Source of the DNA: Erysipelotrichaceae bacterium
GTDB lineage: Bacteria; Bacillota_I; Bacilli_A; Erysipelotrichales; Erysipelotrichaceae
Length of the DNA stretch: 39,125 nt
Assembly: GCA_017539105.1 (NCBI GenBank)
Contig: JAFYHQ010000045.1
Span: forward strand, 118,320-157,444
Reading direction: 5' to 3'
Shown: positions 20,505 to 39,125 of the stretch, piece after piece
Position numbering within the stretch: position 1 is the first letter of the stretch
Layout: every line of letters starts with the position of its first letter
Made by a program: the position numbers and the translations under genes
The notes under the pieces: generated by a model
The model's input: the letters and a program-made list of their open reading frames with translations, nothing else
What the model was told of the DNA's origin: nothing
Database searches by the model: none

Positions 20505-22493
20505 TCACTGATTCTTTTCGCTGAATAAAGCGATGATCGTGTCTTTGTTTAAAGCGTTCAAGGAAAGATCGAAATCGGCGTTTTCTTTGTCTGTTTCGTT
20601 TTCGATGATCACGGCGCCGCATTCTTTCAGCAGGTCTTTCAGGGATAAGGATGTTTCCTGAACAGTTGTAATGTAATTGAATGTATGAACGAATACCGGA
20701 TCGTCGTTTCGTGAGACGATCAGTCTGCTGCTGTTGAAGCTGTCGAATACCATGCGGATCGTATCGTTCGTGAAATAGACAAAGCCCAGACGCATCATGT
20801 TTTCGGATTCCGCCATTTCCATGGGGATCGTAAGAATGATGTTATTGGGGTCGATCATATGATTCTGATTCGCATCTTCCGGCGCGATTCCCGACGGGGA
20901 TCTGGCCAATACGGTATCGAACGGGATCTTTTCCGGATTATAAGTATATTTGTTGATGGAAAACATAAAGGTGCTTTCGACATTCCGACCGATGTAGTAG
21001 AGTTCGCTTGCGCCATCGGGAAGCGGCGCATCCGTCATATCGCCAGAGTAGTAGATATCGTTTGTATCTGAACGGTAGGCAGTGTTCCAGCCGTAGGATG
21101 CTTCCAGATTCTGCATATGCAGGTCGAGGTCGACTCGGGAATCTTCTTCGTCTTCGTGGTCGAGATTGGTCCAGTGGATGCCGAATAGCACATCGGAATC
21201 ATGTTCCGCTTCAAACGAAGAACCGCATGGGATATTGCCGACGAACTGTTTTTCGGAAGTCGGGGCTTTGTACAGGATATCTTTCGGCAGGTAGATGCTT
21301 TTTCCTTCCAGGGAAGATTTCAGTCTGCCGATCAGGTGTTCGTAGACCAGCTGATGGCGTTTTCTGATGAGCTCCTGTTCCGTTTCGTTCAATAATCTGC
21401 GTTCCGTAGCAAACGAGCGGCCGTTGCGGATCTTGTAGACGATGGAAGGAACACTGCTTAAGGCATAGGAAAGACCGTTGAGTATCCTGATTTCCCGGAA
21501 GACGGTAATGCCTTGCAGAGCTCTTAAAAGCTCTTCCTCGCTGATTTGTGTGGATGGCGCAGTCAGACGGTCGAGTTTGTTTATCTGCATCGGCTGATGA
21601 TACTGTTTTGCCAGTTTGGCAAGTCGGTTGATCAGATGATTCAGCTTTGCGGATTCTTCTTTGTCGACGTTGGCTGTGCCTGACTGGAAATAGCTGATGA
21701 TCGATGTTGGATCTTTCTTCTGCAGATCTGTTTTCATTGCCAGAAAGAGTTTCTTGTTTCTCAGAAAGATCGAGGCCAGTTTTTTCATGCCTGCTTCTTC
21801 ATCGTTTTCCAGATAACGCTGAAACAGCTGAAGCAGTTCTTTGCGTGAGAATGCTTTCAGGGAACCGATCGTGAATTGGTCCTGTATTTTCAGGGTGCTT
21901 CCTGTGGCTTTGTATATGAGATAGCGCAGGAATTCATCGGGATCTTCCGGTGCGATCGCTAAAGCGTCACAGAGCGCGATTCTCGCTTCCCGGTTTTTGA
22001 TTTCTTCATAGCGGCTGATATCGATCAGTTCCGCCAGATCGGCGATACAGTTGATGGTGTTTTTGGACAAGGCGATGCCGCTGGTCAGCAGGGACATCAG
22101 TTTTTCCGAGACTTCTTCTTCCGTATAGGCATGGATGCTGATGAGTTCGATGTCTTCCTTCAATTCAGGAATCTCAAGCTTCTCACGGGGAAGATAGACC
22201 GACTCATGAGAAAAGATCCCGAGATCTTCAAAGCCGTAGGTCGTCATATAGTGGATGATCTGTTCATAGAACAGCTCTTCGATCGGTGCGCTTGCAACCT
22301 TGCTCCAGGACTTATGGAAGGTTTGGTTCCAAGCTTCTGCGTCTTTGCCATAGAGTCTTATGGCATCTGCATAGACCTCGTCCGATGCGCTTGCAGGGAT
22401 CAGCAGGCCATATTTCAGAGCTTCCTTGCATATCCTGTCTGTTTTCTCGCCGATAAAGCCCTTGAATAGTTTGAGTACAGATAACTGGTTCAT
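20505..22493 (-). CDS. 662-aa cytoplasmic protein, possible TerD-like region in C-terminal half
   Basis: A large soluble protein without signal peptide or membrane helix. Residues 1-350 are helical and repeat-like (for example LMSLLTSGIALSKNTINCIADLAELIDI), which suggests a solenoid. The stretch HWTNLDHEDEEDSRVDLDLH (near 445), then SGDMTDAPLPDGASELYYI, resembles the VDLDLS...SGD...P.GASE pattern of TerD-related beta-sandwich proteins, including the MXAN_6230-type proteins. This assignment is from memory of the pattern and is moderate to weak. SD AAAGGAAG is good. The mRNA starts with a long hairpin plus T-tract (22516-22566). It is followed by the EIIA gene, which has its own -10 element. 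Confidence 0.55.
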   Translation of the reverse strand: MNQLSVLKLFKGFIGEKTDRICKEALKYGLLIPASASDEVYADAIRLYGKDAEAWNQTFHKSWSKVASAPIEELFYEQIIHYMTTYGFEDLGIFSHESVYLPREKLEIPELKEDIELISIHAYTEEEVSEKLMSLLTSGIALSKNTINCIADLAELIDISRYEEIKNREARIALCDALAIAPEDPDEFLRYLIYKATGSTLKIQDQFTIGSLKAFSRKELLQLFQRYLENDEEAGMKKLASIFLRNKKLFLAMKTDLQKKDPTSIISYFQSGTANVDKEESAKLNHLINRLAKLAKQYHQPMQINKLDRLTAPSTQISEEELLRALQGITVFREIRILNGLSYALSSVPSIVYKIRNGRSFATERRLLNETEQELIRKRHQLVYEHLIGRLKSSLEGKSIYLPKDILYKAPTSEKQFVGNIPCGSSFEAEHDSDVLFGIHWTNLDHEDEEDSRVDLDLHMQNLEASYGWNTAYRSDTNDIYYSGDMTDAPLPDGASELYYIGRNVESTFMFSINKYTYNPEKIPFDTVLARSPSGIAPEDANQNHMIDPNNIILTIPMEMAESENMMRLGFVYFTNDTIRMVFDSFNSSRLIVSRNDDPVFVHTFNYITTVQETSLSLKDLLKECGAVIIENETDKENADFDLSLNALNKDTIIALFSEKNQ

Positions 22494-29838: not shown

Positions 29839-32800
29839 ATGAAGAAAAGAACCGTTAAAAAAGCTATTACTTTTGTCTCTCTGTGTCTGTTGGTCTCGAT
29901 GATTGCGTTAGGATGCTTGGTCGTTAAGAATTGGGATACCCTACAGGAAGAAGAAACACAGATCGTTAATGAAGAAGAACTATTTGAAACTCTGGACTAC
30001 AGGGAATTCGAGGAAGTGGAACCGGTCAATCTGACGACGGGTTTTGATCATAGTCTTCCCAACCTGGAGGATGATCCGGATTCAGGAGACGGTCCTGATC
30101 CTGCAAATAATGTCATTGAAGACGATCGAAGGGATGAAGACGGAAATCTGGAGGAACCTTTTGATATCGTTTATCCGGAAGCAATGGAAGATGTCGTATA
30201 TGATGACAAGACTTTGCTGATTAAGATTCCAAGTCATAAGGATGCTCAAACGGTACTAAAAAATACCGGAATAGAGAAGACGGAAGAGATGTTCAGTATT
30301 TCTTCCGGTACCTGGTATGAAGGTTTTGTAAGAAACGGTTCTGATATTCAGACGGTTTTGGAAAAGGTGAGAGAAATCGATGATGTTCTGGTTGTGGAGT
30401 ATAACTTTGTGTGGGAAACCACGGATACGATCATTGAATCAGATAATTTAACAGAAATTGAAGGCTTGTGCAATAACAATTATGTATATGACCAATGGTA
30501 TTTAAGATCATGTGGTATACAAGGCGCATGGCAGTATCAGCTGATGAATCATCTTCCTTTGGCTGGTGAGGGGACGGTCATTGCCGTCATTGACACCGGC
30601 GTAGATTATACGCATGCCGATCTGTTTGCCAGCATGTGGATCAATCATAATGAAATTCCCGATAATGGTATTGATGATGATAATAATGGCTATATTGACG
30701 ATTATTATGGTGCTGATATCGTTAATGGCCAGGGAAGCGCAAAGGATGATCATGGGCATGGTACGCATGTGGCAGGTATTATAGCCGCGGCAAACAACAA
30801 TGTCGGAACTGTCGGTATTGCTTTTAATGCAAAGATCATGGCGATCAAAGCAGGAAATGCCAGTGGGTATTTCCTGCAATCGGATATCGTTAAGGCGATC
30901 CTTTATGCTCACAACAACGGGGCCGATGTCATTAATATGTCTTTTGGCGGTTCTGCGAGCACGATAGCTGTACAGGATGCTTTGGAGTTTGCGTATACCG
31001 ATTGTGTACTGGTAGCAGCAGCTGGCAATGATGGAGTTATTAATGAATACATATCTGGATATACAGGGCCTGTCATTCCTTCTTACCCTGCTGCTTTTTC
31101 ATATGTGTTAGGTGTTATGTCGGTTGACTCCAACGGCGTTGAATCATATTTCACAAATTTCGACGGGATTTCTGCTTCTAAAACAGAGTACGAAGTATAT
31201 GCGCCAGGGTCAAATATCTTATCAACTATTCCAAATAATAGATATGCTTATTGGTCAGGCACATCTATGGCTACACCGGTAATCTCTGCAATGGCAGCAA
31301 TGATAAGATCAAATTATTCAGACAGAAGTATATATCCAACTAAGTTTATCTATGGGCAGATTTCCTCAACCAGTGAGTTGAATGCGGTTTGTTATAATCC
31401 TTCATTACATACTCTATATCATAACAAACCAATGATTGCTAATGCCTATTATTCGCTGACAAAAACTCCTACTCCGGAAGTGTATCTTCGTGATTATACT
31501 TTGTTTGATACGGAAAGTTTCAGTACCAAGAATAACAGCGATGGCGTTGTGGATTCCGGAGAGATAATAGCTTTAGGTTTTGAAGTATGGAACAGATGGG
31601 GCATGGCAAAAGATACAAATATAACGATTTCTGCTTATTCTCCAACAGGAATTCCTAACCCATATGTTACTTTTGCAACATCTCTAAATGGGCAATATGG
31701 TTATTCTGCGAGTATCAATTATGGCGATGTTGGTACTTATTCATCACAGGACGCCGGAAAAGTATATGATGGTGATTTATGGGTTGGCTGGGATCACCCA
31801 TTCTATGTAAAGGTTGCTGATAATTGTCCAAACGATATGTTGATTACCATCAATGTTCAAGTAACTGCTAAAAACGCATTAAATGAATACGACCACACAT
31901 TATATAACATTTACGGAAACAATCCTCCAACTATTACCCTTGCTATAAGAAATGGGTATATTTTACCATCTGTCATTAATGAAGACATGACGTGGACAGC
32001 AGATAATTACTATATATTAAGCAATTCCGTTTATATTCCTGAAGGAGTTACGGTAAATGTTGAACCTGGCACACAGATACAATTCTGGGCAAATGATCCT
32101 GAAGATACATATGCAGATACGGCGATTGTTTTTCTAAAAGTTGACGGAACTATAAATTTCAACGGAACACAAGAAAACCATATAAGAATATTTCCTAGCG
32201 AATTGTTCGGAAAATATGGCGTTCAGATTTTTGGGAATGCGAATCTCAATTATTGTGATGTGACGAACCCATACTTACGTGCTTACACAGAGAATTCTTT
32301 TGTTAATACTATAGATAACTGTAATTTCAATCAAAATTATAAAGACTATGTGTATATAAAAGAAATAAATAACGGGATAGTTCGAACACATATAAATGGT
32401 GTTTATATAAACTGCAATAATATTATAACTAATTCTTCATTTTATAAATTAGGTTCTCATGATGCGCAGTATTGTGCGGTACTACGCGGTTATTATGAAA
32501 ACTGTTCCTTTATTGATTCATGTATTTATTTCTTTACTGATCAAGATGATTCAAGTTATTCCCGTTGTTTGTTTTATGGAAATAATAACTACCTAGTTAA
32601 TGATGGCGGCGGTGTTTCTAAACTAACAACCGTGAATAATCTAATTATTTTTGATAATATCGCTATTGATAATATTATTCGAAATGAAGAAACAGGAACA
32701 ACATATGCAATTGCCAAAATCGGTATGCAACTTAAGGAAGGAAATGCTTTTAATAATCTTGATCAACTTCTTCAAAGTTTCGATGCTCATATTGTTTCGT

Positions 32801-34047
32801 TTGAGTCTGAAACAGAATATAATTATGTAAAAAACAATTATTTGCGATATCAAAATGAATACTTGTATTACAGATATATTTTCATAGATAAAAATGGTAA
32901 AGCACAAGATATTAATGGAAATGTAATTGAGTTGAATAACGATGCACGTGAGATTCATAATAAATTAATTAATGAAGTTGATTTATCTGAAGGAATGTAT
33001 ATTACCTGTGCTATCGGGGATTGCTGTGAATATGGTTATTACGAAACGTTTTATAAAAAAGAACAATATTTAAATGGTAATGCAGTAAATTATTGTAGTC
33101 CATACAATTACTATGATGGCGCTCAATATCGCTCATTCTTAATCGAAATACCAGGTGAAATATATATAACAGAAATAGGGTTGGCAGAAGATAATATTGA
33201 TATTGATGTTGATACTCTATATCAGATTGTTACGAATCCATATCCAGAAACTGACCAAAATCTCATTTATGAATCAAAAGATGAAACAGTAATCAACGTT
33301 GATGCTTCTGGTTTAATCACCCCCCGGAGTAATGGTAATACCGAAGTGTATGTATACTCTTCTGATAGAGGAGTATATAGCGTTTTAAACGTAAATGTCA
33401 TCGATACTGTTCCATTATCAACTATTTCAGCAACGATCGAGCGGAGCAAATTAAATGTTGGAGAAAAGTTGAAAATACATTATACATTACTGCCTGAAAA
33501 TACAACAAAAAAATCCATTCGATATGTTAGCAATAATGAAGATGTTTGCAAAATTGATAAAAACGGAATCATTACAGCTATTAATCCTGGTACTGCAATT
33601 ATCAGCGTTGTCAGTAATGCCGATGAAGAAATACATGGTGATGTTGAAATTACAGTTACCCAAAATATTACTGATTTATATTACAAAGACAATATATATT
33701 GTACAAACTTAGAAAAAGAAGATGGATTTGATTTTTACCCAACCATTTATCCACATGATTATACCGAGGGTCTTATATGGGAGAGTTCTAATCCAGAAAT
33801 CGCTTATGTTGATAATAACGGACAACTCGTCAAATTACAAAATGGTACCGCAAAGCTTAAAGTTATATCAGACTATACTCGTTTAGAGAGTGATGTAATT
33901 ATCAGCATCTCGGATTATCAAGATACTGCAAAAACAATAAAAATGGAGTCATTTGGTGAAAATTCTGATTATTATGTTTATGCATTACTTAATAATGGCG
34001 AATTATGGACATGGGGAACATCGATTAAATCGCCAAAAAAGTCATAG
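29839..34047 (+). CDS. Giant secreted subtilase (S8), N-terminal part, ending at a frame break
   Basis: 1402 aa. A basic, hydrophobic N-terminus (about 1-30) is an export signal or anchor, with a non-canonical ALGC. Residues 100-200 are a fervidolysin-type propeptide. The catalytic triad is complete: Asp252 (AVIDTGVDYTH), His307 (HGHGTHVAG) and Ser476 (GTSMATP), with oxyanion Asn397 (AAGND). Then come an Ig-like region, a beta-helix-like stretch (about 700-890), three Big_2-type domains (about 1115-1375) and the start of an RCC1-like propeller (LLNNGELWTWGTS), where the frame ends at TAG. From about 31080 the gene turns AT-rich. The next frame continues the same propeller, so this is either a programmed -1 shift, a mutation or a sequencing error in an A6 run. 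Confidence 0.9.
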   Translation: MKKRTVKKAITFVSLCLLVSMIALGCLVVKNWDTLQEEETQIVNEEELFETLDYREFEEVEPVNLTTGFDHSLPNLEDDPDSGDGPDPANNVIEDDRRDEDGNLEEPFDIVYPEAMEDVVYDDKTLLIKIPSHKDAQTVLKNTGIEKTEEMFSISSGTWYEGFVRNGSDIQTVLEKVREIDDVLVVEYNFVWETTDTIIESDNLTEIEGLCNNNYVYDQWYLRSCGIQGAWQYQLMNHLPLAGEGTVIAVIDTGVDYTHADLFASMWINHNEIPDNGIDDDNNGYIDDYYGADIVNGQGSAKDDHGHGTHVAGIIAAANNNVGTVGIAFNAKIMAIKAGNASGYFLQSDIVKAILYAHNNGADVINMSFGGSASTIAVQDALEFAYTDCVLVAAAGNDGVINEYISGYTGPVIPSYPAAFSYVLGVMSVDSNGVESYFTNFDGISASKTEYEVYAPGSNILSTIPNNRYAYWSGTSMATPVISAMAAMIRSNYSDRSIYPTKFIYGQISSTSELNAVCYNPSLHTLYHNKPMIANAYYSLTKTPTPEVYLRDYTLFDTESFSTKNNSDGVVDSGEIIALGFEVWNRWGMAKDTNITISAYSPTGIPNPYVTFATSLNGQYGYSASINYGDVGTYSSQDAGKVYDGDLWVGWDHPFYVKVADNCPNDMLITINVQVTAKNALNEYDHTLYNIYGNNPPTITLAIRNGYILPSVINEDMTWTADNYYILSNSVYIPEGVTVNVEPGTQIQFWANDPEDTYADTAIVFLKVDGTINFNGTQENHIRIFPSELFGKYGVQIFGNANLNYCDVTNPYLRAYTENSFVNTIDNCNFNQNYKDYVYIKEINNGIVRTHINGVYINCNNIITNSSFYKLGSHDAQYCAVLRGYYENCSFIDSCIYFFTDQDDSSYSRCLFYGNNNYLVNDGGGVSKLTTVNNLIIFDNIAIDNIIRNEETGTTYAIAKIGMQLKEGNAFNNLDQLLQSFDAHIVSFESETEYNYVKNNYLRYQNEYLYYRYIFIDKNGKAQDINGNVIELNNDAREIHNKLINEVDLSEGMYITCAIGDCCEYGYYETFYKKEQYLNGNAVNYCSPYNYYDGAQYRSFLIEIPGEIYITEIGLAEDNIDIDVDTLYQIVTNPYPETDQNLIYESKDETVINVDASGLITPRSNGNTEVYVYSSDRGVYSVLNVNVIDTVPLSTISATIERSKLNVGEKLKIHYTLLPENTTKKSIRYVSNNEDVCKIDKNGIITAINPGTAIISVVSNADEEIHGDVEITVTQNITDLYYKDNIYCTNLEKEDGFDFYPTIYPHDYTEGLIWESSNPEIAYVDNNGQLVKLQNGTAKLKVISDYTRLESDVIISISDYQDTAKTIKMESFGENSDYYVYALLNNGELWTWGTSIKSPKKS
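34035..34041 (+). other. Slippery heptamer A_AAA_AAG in frame, at the frame break
   Basis: In the zero frame the codons are CCA AAA AAG TCA TAG, so the bases A-AAA-AAG form the same heptamer used by E. coli dnaX. Slipping back one base continues as GTC ATA GCA AAT..., directly into the frame of the next open reading frame, bypassing the TAG at 34045-34047. A GGGGAA at 34013-34018 is a possible upstream stimulator, but its spacing (16 nt) is longer than usual. Only a weak 5-bp stem (TTATA/TATAA) is seen downstream. Confidence 0.6.
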
Positions 34048-34061
34048 CAAATTATTATATA

Positions 34062-36737
34062 GTGGATTTTGTTATAAACGACCATAATCTTTATATCCTA
34101 GATGATTCTGGAATCGTTTATAAGTCTGATAAGCAAATAAATAGCGAGTATAATCAGTTTAATTGTAATTTTTCACAATTTTTTGACGATGTAATTATGC
34201 TTGAGAGCAATCCTTATTATACAAATCCGGTATTTGCAATAAGAAGCGATAGAACGGCTTGGGCATGGGCAGGTAATAACTATCATGGCACATATGGCAA
34301 TGATTCATATACTAATTCACCTTTTCCAATTCAGAGTAATATTTCAAATGTTATTGATATCAAGGTTAATAATGATTTAGCTTTTTTCTTAACTGAAAAT
34401 GAAAATTTGTATGTTACAGGTGGTTATTATATGTACAATACACCTTATTTATTCGAAACAGGAGTGAAAGCAATAATCAAAAGCGACTCATTATATTATG
34501 TTACTTCTGATAGTCTTAATTATGTTAATAGTTATTTAGATATTGATCGATGTGACGAAAAATATAGTGATAAACAAATAGTATTAAATAACGGTAATTT
34601 AGGATATTATATACAGAATGGTGAATTATTTGTTAGATGCAGATACAATCGCACCGATGGGATTCTTGGTCTAGGAGAAGATGTTATTAGTACTAATAAT
34701 GAATATGTAAGAGTTGAGAGTATTGAAAACGCCGTCAATGTCTTTTCGAATAACACAACTACTTATATTCAAACTGAAGATGGTACATTGTATGGCATGG
34801 GTGTAAATTCCGGTGGACAGTTAGCTGACTTTTCAACAGCGAACAGTTTTGTACCTAAAAAAATACACTTTGGTTTGCAGCCTAATTATGATAGTTTAGA
34901 AGTAAATAGAACTAACATAACTGATGATACTCTATCGGATCAAGTTTTAGTAGTTGAATTTAATGAAGCGTTGATTAAAGGAAATAATTACGCTTATATT
35001 AGTATGATTGACGAAAACGGCAATCAGGTAGGGATTAATAAATCAATCACTTTGAATAAGTTTATTATAAGTAAAGCAAATGGTTTCGAAATCAACAAAG
35101 CATATACTTTAAATATTCCCAATGATGCTTTGATGACTTTATTTTCAAATGGTAACGAAGAGATTTCATTCACTTTTTCATATATGAATAATAGTAATCC
35201 TGAACCAGAAGAAGATTTGCCATCAATCTGGAACGAAGAATTGTTAACCGAAGAAATCGAAACAGTTGAAACATTTATAAATGAAGAAGTGCAACGTTTT
35301 TATTGGACTGAAGAATTAATTTTAGATAAGATCGATTTCTTTGCCAAACATGGAGTCAATTCTTATTTCTATAACAATGCTATAATAAATAATTTTTCTG
35401 TAGATATACCAGAGAATTATTGGTTAAGGATTCAAGGACCATCAAGTTCAACATATAACGAACTTTCAATTGCCTATAACTATTGGGGTACAACTAATGA
35501 GATATTGATTAATAAGCAGATTGTTGACTTCAATGACTATCAGACTTTAACCAATCTTAATCCTGACCCTTGGCTTACGGAAGCTCCATCTGATGTATGG
35601 CCATTCGTCGTCAATGCCGGTGTCATGAATTCAGAAGGCGAAGTCGTCGATACTGTAGGAAATGAATCTGTGACTTTCTTTACCGAATTCAACCGTCCGA
35701 TGGATCGGGAAGTTGATCTCGATTTCCGCTTTGGCTCAACATACCCATATGCCGATTATCAGATCACTGGCGAATGGGTGTCCGATACCAGATGGGAAGG
35801 CAATGCCACGATCAATACAAGAATCGAATCAGGTGCACAGTATCTGTCTATCAGCAATGCTTATTCTGGTGATGAACAGCATCTTCAGTTTTTCAAAGAT
35901 TGGGGAAGATTTACATTCAATATTGATATGTCTAATGCTTTGTCGATGACGATGCATGGCGAAGCAATGGATACGGGCATTCAGCTTACTTGGGAACAGG
36001 ACGACTTCGACACGCTGATCGGTTACAATGTTTACCGTTCCTACAGTGAAGACGGTTTCTACACAAGATTGAATTCCGTTGTCATACCGGTTGGCGAAGA
36101 AGAATTCTTCGATGACACAGTCGAACCTGGTCAAGTCTACTATTATAATTTCACAGTTGTCATGTCTGACTTGAGTGAATCGACACCATCAGGAAAGATC
36201 GTCATCAGATCAAAGGATACGATGGCTCCGAACATCTATCATTCTCCTGTTTATACAGCATATACAGGATCGAATCTGGTCATCAGTGCTACGATCATAG
36301 ATAATATCGGAGTACAAAGAGCGAAACTGTATTATCGTATCACTGAAACGGAAGAATGGCATTCTGTCGAGATGACAAAGAATAACGACAAATACTATGG
36401 AACGATTCCTAGTTCCTATGTCACTACCGCGGGCATCGATTACTATATCGAAGCGTTTGATGGCGTATCTTATACTTATTCCAGAACTGCCGAGAATCCA
36501 TACAACATTCTTGTGAAGGAAGCGATAGGCAATGATCAGCTGGGCGATGTCGATGGTGATGGCAAGATCACAAATAAAGACGCATTGATGATCATTCAGG
36601 CAGTCAACGACTTGCTGAACCTGACAGAGGATGAATTCACCAGAGCAGATCTCAACAAAGATGGCGAACTGTCTTCTACCGAAGCTTTGCTTATTCTGAA
36701 ATATGTGAGCGGAAAGATCACAAGTCTTGTTATCTGA
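34062..36737 (+). CDS. Continuation of the giant protease: RCC1-like, Ig-like, FN3 and C-terminal dockerin
   Basis: 891 aa counted from a GTG, but the frame truly begins at 34041. It has no SD and no signal peptide, and its first residues complete the RCC1-like repeat of the upstream frame (with WAWAGNNYHGTYGND and LYGMGVNSGGQLAD). Then come a Big_5-type Ig-like domain (about 285-370), a second structured region, an FN3 module (about 640-715), an Ig-like domain with IDNIGVQRAKLYY (about 745-790) and a type-I-like dockerin (about 826-888). The dockerin has two EF-like calcium loops, GDVDGDGKITNKDALMIIQ and ADLNKDGELSSTEALLILK. Joined to the upstream part, the protein would be about 2299 aa. 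It is not an independent gene; treat it as the 3' half. Confidence 0.85.
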   Translation: MDFVINDHNLYILDDSGIVYKSDKQINSEYNQFNCNFSQFFDDVIMLESNPYYTNPVFAIRSDRTAWAWAGNNYHGTYGNDSYTNSPFPIQSNISNVIDIKVNNDLAFFLTENENLYVTGGYYMYNTPYLFETGVKAIIKSDSLYYVTSDSLNYVNSYLDIDRCDEKYSDKQIVLNNGNLGYYIQNGELFVRCRYNRTDGILGLGEDVISTNNEYVRVESIENAVNVFSNNTTTYIQTEDGTLYGMGVNSGGQLADFSTANSFVPKKIHFGLQPNYDSLEVNRTNITDDTLSDQVLVVEFNEALIKGNNYAYISMIDENGNQVGINKSITLNKFIISKANGFEINKAYTLNIPNDALMTLFSNGNEEISFTFSYMNNSNPEPEEDLPSIWNEELLTEEIETVETFINEEVQRFYWTEELILDKIDFFAKHGVNSYFYNNAIINNFSVDIPENYWLRIQGPSSSTYNELSIAYNYWGTTNEILINKQIVDFNDYQTLTNLNPDPWLTEAPSDVWPFVVNAGVMNSEGEVVDTVGNESVTFFTEFNRPMDREVDLDFRFGSTYPYADYQITGEWVSDTRWEGNATINTRIESGAQYLSISNAYSGDEQHLQFFKDWGRFTFNIDMSNALSMTMHGEAMDTGIQLTWEQDDFDTLIGYNVYRSYSEDGFYTRLNSVVIPVGEEEFFDDTVEPGQVYYYNFTVVMSDLSESTPSGKIVIRSKDTMAPNIYHSPVYTAYTGSNLVISATIIDNIGVQRAKLYYRITETEEWHSVEMTKNNDKYYGTIPSSYVTTAGIDYYIEAFDGVSYTYSRTAENPYNILVKEAIGNDQLGDVDGDGKITNKDALMIIQAVNDLLNLTEDEFTRADLNKDGELSSTEALLILKYVSGKITSLVI

Positions 36738-39125
36738 TGGCTATGAAAAAACTATTGATACTATTGCTATCGGTGATGCTGGTGTTTGCTGATACCGCTT
36801 ATGTATCGGCAGACGGACCAAGCGTATCGGCTTCAGATGGAAGCGGTTATCCCGGCAATACGGTTTATACTTATATAGATGCCAATGATTTCAATCATAT
36901 CGGAGGATTGGATCTGAATGTATATTATGATTCCGATGTATTGACGCTGGTATCCTGTGATGAAACGGGTATTTTGGCTTCTTCTGAACATCTGACCGAT
37001 ATTAATACCAATACGGTAGGTCAAATCAATACCAGTTCGATTTTTACGAATTCACTTTCGGGAAGCGGATCTCTTATCGTGGTTGGTTTCAGAATCAAAC
37101 AGGATGCGACACCGGGAGAAACTACTGTCAATATCGCGATAGGTGATGTCTATGATCAGAACCTGAACCCGGTTTCGCTGAATGGAACCAGCTACATAAT
37201 CATGATCAACGAAAGACCGACTGTTATCAATACGATGAGTCTGTCTTCTACCACAGGTATTTCTGCTTACGAGAACGATGTGTTCAGTTTGAATCTGTGG
37301 ACCAATAATGCATACAATATGGCTGCTGCAGATTTCATCATCGCATACGACAGTGAAAAACTGGAGTATCAGGAACTGACACTAGGTTCTGCGATGCTGG
37401 AAGCCAATGGGGCTCTATATGACATCAATGCCAGAGACGGATATATAGAAGTCTCTTATATCTGCCTGAATGGCATCGATGGTTCGATCAATCCGATCAT
37501 GAGTGTTGAATTCAAATCTGTTGCGGATGAAAACGGGCAGACAAGCGTTTCTTTCACGAGTGAAAGCGTCTATGATTCGGCACTGAACCTTATTAATGGG
37601 AGCAGTGTAACATCCATCATTGCTTTGCGTGAGCAGGGAATCATTGATGATAAACTGAAAATCACCACTTCCAATGAATTGGATGAAAACAGGGATGTCA
37701 TTGTCCGATTCTATGTCCCGGGAGAAACCAACCTGGCTGCTGCAGATTTTATCGTCAGTTTTGATAATACAAAAGTAACATGTTCAAAAGTGGAAAAGAT
37801 ATGCAGTTGCGGTTCCATTACGTACAATATTAAAAATGAAAATGGTCAGGTTAAGTTCTCTTATATCGATATGGATGGAGGATTGACGGAAGACACGGAA
37901 CTACTTGCTTTAACATTCGTAACTGCAAACAATGATTGTGTTGATGTTCCAATCGACTTCATTGTTAAAAATCCGATCAATGATGCTTTTGAGAACTTAG
38001 ACCTTGAATGCGTCGGAACCAGTTTTCATATGCATAAGTATTCCGGAGAACCAAACTACATGGAAGATGTAGTTTGCGAAATATGTGGGGAAGTCATTTA
38101 TCCAAAACTATGTCCGACAGATTATACGATCCATTTTGATGCAAATGACGGAACAGGAGAAATGGAAGATCAGCTGTTCCTGTATGGCGTTCCGCAAGCA
38201 TTAAGCAAGAATCAATTTACCCGTCAGGGATATCGTTTTACAGGTTGGTCATGTAATGACGTAATCTATCAGGATGAGCAAGAGATCTCATTAAATGAAT
38301 TCGTTCAAGACCATGAAACATTCACTTTCTATGCGAACTGGGCCGCAAACGATGATACGCCTTACACCGTCAACCACTGGCGGGAAGACCTTTCCGGAAA
38401 CTATCCGGATTCGCTGAAAGAGAGCCAGACCCTCTACGGCCAGACGGATTCAACGGTCACTCCTGAAGTCAGAAGCTACGAAGGCTTCCGTTCTCCTGAA
38501 CAGGAAAGCCTCGAGATCAGCGCGGACGGAACGGCCGTCCTGGACTACTACTACACCAGAAACTCCTACGTACTGACTCTGGAGAAGGGAAGAGGCATCT
38601 CTTCCGCATCCGGGGCGGGGACCTACAAATACGAGCAGCAGGTATCGCTGTCCGCCGTCCTTCTTGAAGGCTACGAGAACATCGTCTATTCCGGAGACTT
38701 CAGCACGGCTTCCTTTGCGATGCCTGCAGGCAACGTGGCGATGTCCGTATCCGCCTCGCCGATCCTGTATTCGATCAGCTACGATCTGGACGGAGGCGTT
38801 CTTGAGGAAGACAATCCTTCCTCCTATACTGTGGAATCACCGGCCATCGTCCTGAACGAACCGTCAAAACAGGGATACGTCTTCCTGGGCTGGACGGGAA
38901 CGGATCTCGATGAACCTACGAAGGACGTGACGATCCCATCGGGGTCCACCGGAGACAGGGAATACACCGCGAACTGGCGATTTGCCGACATTCTCGTCGA
39001 ATCCGTCACCCTGAACAAGACGGAACTCGAGCTGACGATCCTTGGATCCGAGACCCTGCAGGCTACCGTGCTTCCTGAGGATGCCACAAACAGGAACGTC
39101 ACATGGTCCTCTTCCGACATGACCG
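36737..39125 (+). CDS. Cohesin-bearing surface scaffold protein, open at the window end
   Basis: 796 codons without a stop; the gene leaves the window. The ATG at 36737 overlaps the dockerin gene's TGA (TGATG); ATG 36743 is a close alternative. A signal peptide (MKKLLILLLSVMLVFADTAYVSA) is cut near residue 26. Three cohesin-like modules follow (about 28-155, 165-300, 305-425), each with the GG/AA-D-x-x-I-x-Y/F-D core, e.g. HIGGLDLNVYYDSDVLTLVS and MAAADFIIAYDSEKLEY. Next are a His/Cys cluster (HMHKYSG...CEICGE, about 430-455), an InlB-type repeat (about 463-535), a MucBP-like region, a second InlB repeat (about 676-747) and a Big_2 domain cut by the edge. From about 38345 the DNA is much more GC-rich. 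It is probably a surface scaffold that captures dockerin-bearing proteins. Confidence 0.85.
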   Translation, partial: MAMKKLLILLLSVMLVFADTAYVSADGPSVSASDGSGYPGNTVYTYIDANDFNHIGGLDLNVYYDSDVLTLVSCDETGILASSEHLTDINTNTVGQINTSSIFTNSLSGSGSLIVVGFRIKQDATPGETTVNIAIGDVYDQNLNPVSLNGTSYIIMINERPTVINTMSLSSTTGISAYENDVFSLNLWTNNAYNMAAADFIIAYDSEKLEYQELTLGSAMLEANGALYDINARDGYIEVSYICLNGIDGSINPIMSVEFKSVADENGQTSVSFTSESVYDSALNLINGSSVTSIIALREQGIIDDKLKITTSNELDENRDVIVRFYVPGETNLAAADFIVSFDNTKVTCSKVEKICSCGSITYNIKNENGQVKFSYIDMDGGLTEDTELLALTFVTANNDCVDVPIDFIVKNPINDAFENLDLECVGTSFHMHKYSGEPNYMEDVVCEICGEVIYPKLCPTDYTIHFDANDGTGEMEDQLFLYGVPQALSKNQFTRQGYRFTGWSCNDVIYQDEQEISLNEFVQDHETFTFYANWAANDDTPYTVNHWREDLSGNYPDSLKESQTLYGQTDSTVTPEVRSYEGFRSPEQESLEISADGTAVLDYYYTRNSYVLTLEKGRGISSASGAGTYKYEQQVSLSAVLLEGYENIVYSGDFSTASFAMPAGNVAMSVSASPILYSISYDLDGGVLEEDNPSSYTVESPAIVLNEPSKQGYVFLGWTGTDLDEPTKDVTIPSGSTGDREYTANWRFADILVESVTLNKTELELTILGSETLQATVLPEDATNRNVTWSSSDMT

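Follow-up and report, generated by a model that had tools for sequence, protein, structure and literature searches.

A dockerin-tailed subtilase gene beside a three-cohesin gene, a candidate two-gene surface display module in an Erysipelotrichaceae bacterium

Results

The protease gene and its frame break

The 39,125-nucleotide stretch analysed here (the window) forms the 3' terminus of contig 41 in an Erysipelotrichaceae genome of 2.09 Mb in 48 contigs, about 89% complete. On its forward strand a protease gene in two pieces (29839-34047 and 34062-36737) is followed by a gene for a cohesin-bearing scaffold protein (36737-39125). The first piece encodes a hydrophobic N-terminus, an S8 subtilase domain at residues 243-494 (PF00082, E 8.5e-47), Big_2 Ig-like repeats (PF02368, E 7.9e-16) and, by eye, the start of an RCC1-like region. 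Within the S8 domain lie DTGVD at 252, HGHGTHVAG at 305 and GTSMATP at 474, the Asp, His and Ser motifs of subtilases; the assignment to this family was based on the profile match together with these motifs. The second piece continues with RCC1-like repeats and an Ig/FN3-like region and ends in a dockerin. The RCC1-like and Ig-like repeats suggest that the protein may use them for reach and for protein binding. The original prediction had placed no cellulase nearby, and none of seven other ORFs scanned between 20505 and 29607 was a glycoside hydrolase by Pfam, a result that holds for these seven only. A 662-residue ORF at 20505-22493 on the reverse strand had no Pfam match at E<=0.001.

The two protease pieces, about 2,300 residues together, stand in different frames, the first stopping at 34047 and the next ORF running from 34062, with the break (34035-34062) beside an A run. 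They are read here as one gene in two frames, because an unbroken homologue in a second species (G010, listed in the same genus) covers most of both: one uninterrupted frame there, 1,974 codons long, spans residues 193-1401 of the first piece and 2-617 of the second, with neither an A run or heptamer nor a break at the corresponding site. The break may stem from an assembly error, from a genuine change or from an A run that can switch, and all three would look alike. The middle of the gene (31800-35400) has 30.7% GC, compared with 44.8% for the window and 44.3% for roughly the same part of the congener; this mosaic or AT-drifting stretch also contains the frame break.

Both the break and the AT-rich middle would be expected if the locus were decaying or switched off, with the protease separated from its dockerin and the pair non-functional. 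This appears unlikely: past the break 891 codons remain open and align in frame with the homologue (46% identity over residues 2-617 and 73% over 610-809), the catalytic motifs are present, and the picture would be no different with an assembly error or with phase variation of the A run. The A run contains the heptamer A AAA AAG (34035-34041), a slippery sequence as in dnaX, correctly phased for -1 slippage into the next ORF, which is in the -1 frame. Programmed frameshifting at this site, yielding a soluble protease as well as a dockerin-tailed one, is nevertheless most improbable, given the congener's lack of both heptamer and break and the unremarkable RNA fold downstream of the heptamer (z -1.09).

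The dockerin and the cohesin scaffold

The predicted two-repeat dockerin at the end of the protease unit was recovered by profile search, albeit on the second piece of a gene split into two frames. It is a type I dockerin at 36540-36707 (residues 827-882 of ORF 34062-36737; PF00404, E 2e-11, 44.3 bits relative to a cut-off of 22.9, and 49.4 bits in the whole-genome search). The match spans profile positions 1-56 of 57 and comprises two calcium-loop/helix repeats, of which both loops are recognizable by eye (DVDGDGKITNKD and DLNKDGELSSTE). By sequence, the best solved relatives were 8x39_A, deposited as 'Serine protease' (2.1e-8), and 1ohz_B, the dockerin of a C. thermocellum xylanase (2.8e-8). 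The structural model of the dockerin was poor (pLDDT below 50) and, with helices positioned as expected, adds little.

The stop codon of the dockerin gene and the start codon of the scaffold gene overlap as TGATG (36735-36739). The scaffold gene encodes a leader, three cohesins, List_Bact repeats and the beginning of a Big_2 domain; by eye, its N-terminus is hydrophobic and resembles a signal peptide. As anticipated from the sequence, there are three cohesin modules (PF00963, E 1.6e-20, 74.1 bits, three stretches), so that both partner modules exceed their Pfam cut-offs. In the genome search each passed the cut-off of 24.1 bits alone: cohesin 1 (36821-37213) with 42.6, cohesin 2 (37241-37639) with 31.5 and cohesin 3 (37658-38044), barely, with 24.9 bits. 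A model of the cohesin region made from two sequences was confident for cohesin 1 (pLDDT blocks of 75-92 over residues 31-160), of lower confidence for cohesin 2 and weak for cohesin 3. The expected fold was found for cohesin 1, which matched 6kge_A (CohA2 of C. acetobutylicum) and 2xdh (a non-cellulosomal cohesin of A. fulgidus) with a TMt of 0.83 each (Foldseek). Among 141 PDB matches of the cohesin region at E<=0.001, the best 50 included many cohesins; the top match by E-value was not a cohesin but the Ig-like domains of PrgB (8beg_B), and further chains from adhesins and integrins matched as well, in multi-domain Ig-like overlaps with an rmsd above 10. No PDB sequence matched the cohesin region at E<=0.01 (phmmer).

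As foreseen, the scaffold gene runs off the window edge without a stop, and the contig ends there too; the congener's scaffold gene is likewise cut by a contig end, leaving any anchor region outside the sequence in both genomes. The last 166 bases of the window matched, besides themselves, contig 20 alone, which ends at the same base and offers no continuation. The identity covers 141 bases (38985-39125; query 26-166, 100%), and at the end of contig 20 (L115) a different surface-protein gene stops within the same 141 bases. This suggests a repeated region common to two surface-protein genes of the genome, and the sharing probably explains the assembly breaking off within the scaffold gene.

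The pair in a congener

A scan for named relatives with the same pair returned one locus, the contig sequence of the congener, and the congener's contig with the pair is identical base for base to the record Solobacterium sp. UBA3303. There the protease frame runs to a contig end, and the dockerin and the cohesin gene are on a separate contig, which begins with the matching protease tail and continues with the dockerin and a three-cohesin gene. The dockerin stop ends at 849 and the cohesin gene starts at 851, with a single spacer base, and thus the pair, its gene order and its tight spacing are common to both species. The congener's cohesin protein is 45% identical to the scaffold of the window over 441 residues; Pfam counts two cohesin stretches in it, the third coming from our own profiles. 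The dockerin is better conserved between the two species (55 of 64 residues identical) than the cohesins (44-51%). A second dockerin ORF of the congener, on contig 99 (L084:5943-8570), scored 41.5 bits with PF00404, over the cut-off, and 36.9 bits with a profile of related dockerins. The frame of this ORF has 875 residues, with the dockerin close to the N-terminus.

Dockerin and cohesin content of the genome

PF00404 gave two matches at E<=1 in the window's own genome, with the window's dockerin alone over the cut-off; of the further dockerin proteins suggested as possible, none passed it in this 89% complete genome. The other match, of 18.4 bits, falls within a contig 28 S8 protease (L007:7266-14480) that also has PA, Big_2, DUF218 and SLH domains. 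With profiles built from related modules (12 dockerins and 11 cohesins, those of the window included), no second dockerin was found in the genome at E<=10, contig 28 included, and one cohesin-like stretch was found (13.1 bits, E 0.094), in the same contig 28 protease. PF00963 detected the window's three modules only.

With three cohesins in one protein, the scaffold is a multi-cohesin scaffoldin, and to this extent a complex of several enzymes, in which the three cohesins would hold different dockerin enzymes around the protease, has something in its favour, as it has in the weak dockerin-like stretch on contig 28, in the roughly 11% of the genome that may be missing and in the second dockerin ORF of the congener. 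Instead of several different dockerin enzymes, though, the genome holds one dockerin over the cut-off and one weak match, the related-dockerin profile adds none, and such a complex is rather unlikely. Neither a dockerin-bearing glycosidase over the cut-off nor, as a mucinolysome would have, a dockerin-bearing mucin glycosidase was found in the genome, the weak second dockerin being in an S8 protease. A cellulosome or mucinolysome in this genome was rejected because a single protein of each kind, dockerin and cohesin, exceeds its cut-off and the related profiles add nothing strong. Of the proposed protease-based, cellulosome-like system, what stands is the pairing of an S8-dockerin gene with a multi-cohesin gene, which is real and recurs in a second species, together with the lack of a dockerin-bearing glycosidase over the cut-off; the multi-enzyme complex is not supported.

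Neighbouring pairs among relatives

In 147 genomes searched at E<=0.01 (own included), a cohesin match was present in 29, a dockerin match in 62 and both in 25. Dockerin and cohesin genes were neighbours in 12 of these 25, again counting the window's own genome (G000, G001, G002, G010, G049, G050, G052, G054, G092, G094, G113 and G129), whereas a nearby pair occurred only within one polypeptide in five (G014, G015, G028, G055 and G108), one (G081) combined both modules in one polypeptide with a further cohesin gene two genes along, and the modules were apart in seven (G009, G064, G072, G083, G084, G110 and G134). The profile of our own used in assigning these neighbours was built from the same hits and is biased towards them; it alone reported the neighbouring cohesin of the five-dockerin cluster in G113 (18.0 bits, absent from the Pfam list), and it did not report the G054 dockerin, which Pfam scored at 21.2 bits (26.8 with its neighbours). 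Matches within 3 kb of each other were observed in 16 genomes, several of them within one polypeptide, compared with 0.2 expected under uniform placement, an estimate that ignores relatedness and operon structure, relatives not being independent samples.

Ten cohesin partners were complete, those of the window, G010, G092 and G129 being cut by contig ends, and eight of the ten have a hydrophobic helix at the C-terminus and, behind it, basic residues (KD19 1.97-3.52). For one of the eight, on contig 48 of G113, a gene separates the cohesin gene from the dockerin gene. The two partners without a C-terminal helix are a cohesin-LRR protein of G002 (0.55) and the partner in G001 (1.14), which by eye starts with a lipoprotein-like leader. 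A C-terminal membrane helix was found in none of the 17 dockerin proteins tested, the window's included (0.05-1.21). In G094, from another genus, an S8-dockerin protease gene is divergent from a membrane-anchored cohesin gene, and the cargo of other dockerin partners includes a glucosaminidase (G092), NPCBM and F5/8 domains (G050) and LRR proteins (G113). The latter belong to a cluster (L090:1-12038) of five tandem dockerin-ended genes, four of them with LRR by Pfam and the first truncated by the start of the contig; a single small gene for a membrane-anchored cohesin protein comes after them.

Cohesin anchoring as a substitute for sortase was rejected, with a sortase over the cut-off in 11 of the 12 genomes tested, own included; G002 was the sole one of the 12 without a sortase match. 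Four large polypeptides of relatives (L072:7278-13460, L073:2992-8094, L092:723-9092 and L095:7082-12202) carry an internal dockerin-like module and later a cohesin-like one, and such large secreted polypeptides could link together in chains. Two of them (L073:2992-8094 and L095:7082-12202) end in R/K-IPxTGID plus one residue, which resembles a sortase motif but lacks the usual membrane helix.

Adjacent genes need not encode partners: the dockerin could serve another scaffold while the cohesins catch dockerins of foreign bacteria, and scavenging has been suggested for Paenibacillus guangzhouensis in the part of the source available (PMC11557425). For the window this is very unlikely: beyond the scaffold, the genome has no cohesin protein that passes the cut-off, only the one 13.1-bit stretch below it, and the adjacency is kept in the congener and recurs in relatives.

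Discussion

The locus is likely to be a two-gene surface display module, made up of an S8-dockerin protease and a neighbouring tri-cohesin protein, and as judged from sequence this reading is better supported than a multi-enzyme, protease-based cellulosome. The subtilase, predicted to be secreted and active, has a type I dockerin at its C-terminus and lacks a membrane helix there, and the downstream gene would supply an exported protein in which repeat domains come after three type I cohesins. The stop/start overlap suggests that translation of protease and scaffold is probably coupled. Loaded with calcium, the dockerin would bind the neighbouring cohesins in a calcium-dependent manner, and the cohesins, if the scaffold is located at the cell surface, may hold one to three copies of the protease there. 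Counting against this module are the frames as assembled, from which the exported protease product would lack the dockerin; the presence of three cohesins for one clear dockerin protein in the genome; the poor dockerin model; the two complete cohesin partners of ten with no C-terminal helix; and the 13 of 25 genomes in which the two modules are not in neighbouring genes.

Cohesin and dockerin modules outside cellulosomes were reportedly described by Peer et al. in 2009. The Archaeoglobus fulgidus pair is non-cellulosomal like that of the window, and its cohesin (2xdh) is among the fold matches obtained here. Both modules occur across a range of bacteria and archaea that are not regarded as cellulose degraders, and, in the text available, multi-cohesin proteins were absent from earlier archaeal cases, whereas a single protein of ANME archaea can contain as many as five cohesins (PMC9012536); relative to the archaeal modules covered there, the window differs in having three tandem cohesins beside a protease gene.

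The original prediction had stressed that known cohesin-dockerin machines mainly display glycosidases; a dockerin-bearing subtilase is already known, however, from C. thermocellum, whose S8 protease carries a double dockerin, dDoc_0689, of solved structure (PMC12484212, available portion). The first dockerin of dDoc_0689 prefers the cohesin of a cell-bound scaffoldin, and surface anchoring of the protease was proposed (same portion of PMC12484212); the 'Serine protease' of PDB entries 8x39 and 8x3a is presumably this protein. As in the window, an S8 subtilase is thus carried on type I dockerins, but according to that portion the C. thermocellum protease has two dockerins and belongs to a cellulosome with many dockerin proteins, whereas the window's protease has one, is the only clear client in its genome and has its own adjacent three-cohesin gene. 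The mucinolysome of the gut bacterium Limousia is a predicted complex unrelated to cellulose. In the accessible text, strain ET540 has six peptidases that bear dockerins, each genome encodes 3-6 scaffoldins and as many as 22 dockerin CAZymes, and both modules occur in 4,333 of 289,232 human gut genomes (PMC12997984). The window is like the mucinolysome in its gut-type bacterium, its non-cellulose setting and its dockerin-bearing peptidase and unlike it in that no dockerin CAZymes were seen in its genome. In C. alkalicellulosi and A. cellulolyticus, the scaffoldins ScaO and ScaP combine peptidase, cohesin and dockerin modules, all, from the part of the source at hand, in one polypeptide within a full cellulosome, unlike the two-gene pair described here (PMC6780208). 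The presumably non-cellulolytic Lachnoclostridium sp. MSJ-17 has single-cohesin proteins with C-terminal membrane helices, scaffoldins that, again unlike the window's, might accommodate up to 39 dockerin proteins (PMC11557425, in part). Every element is already known as far as these partial sources go, including dockerin-bearing S8 proteases and non-cellulosomal cohesin-dockerin pairs; what is new is the combination of a giant subtilase and a tri-cohesin partner encoded next to it, in a genome with no other clear pair.

The wider pattern of neighbouring pairs in the Erysipelotrichales is a more interesting lead than the single locus. We tentatively propose, as a real but less than even prospect, that Erysipelotrichales around this genome use cohesin and dockerin as a general anchor between neighbours, outside any cellulosome: unanchored subtilases, a glucosaminidase, LRR proteins and sugar-binding proteins would each be held by a dedicated, adjacent membrane cohesin, and the window would show this arrangement with three sockets, for a giant protease. 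No study of cohesin and dockerin genes paired as neighbours in Erysipelotrichales was among the literature matches listed, which scarcely cover subscription literature. Two purified modules would suffice to test each of these small pairs, and orthogonal pairs that are new would be useful as laboratory connectors. If the proposal is true, the cohesin-dockerin interaction, best known from degraders of plant cell walls, would also be a means of simple surface attachment in gut Erysipelotrichales, a device that would serve proteases and other surface proteins.
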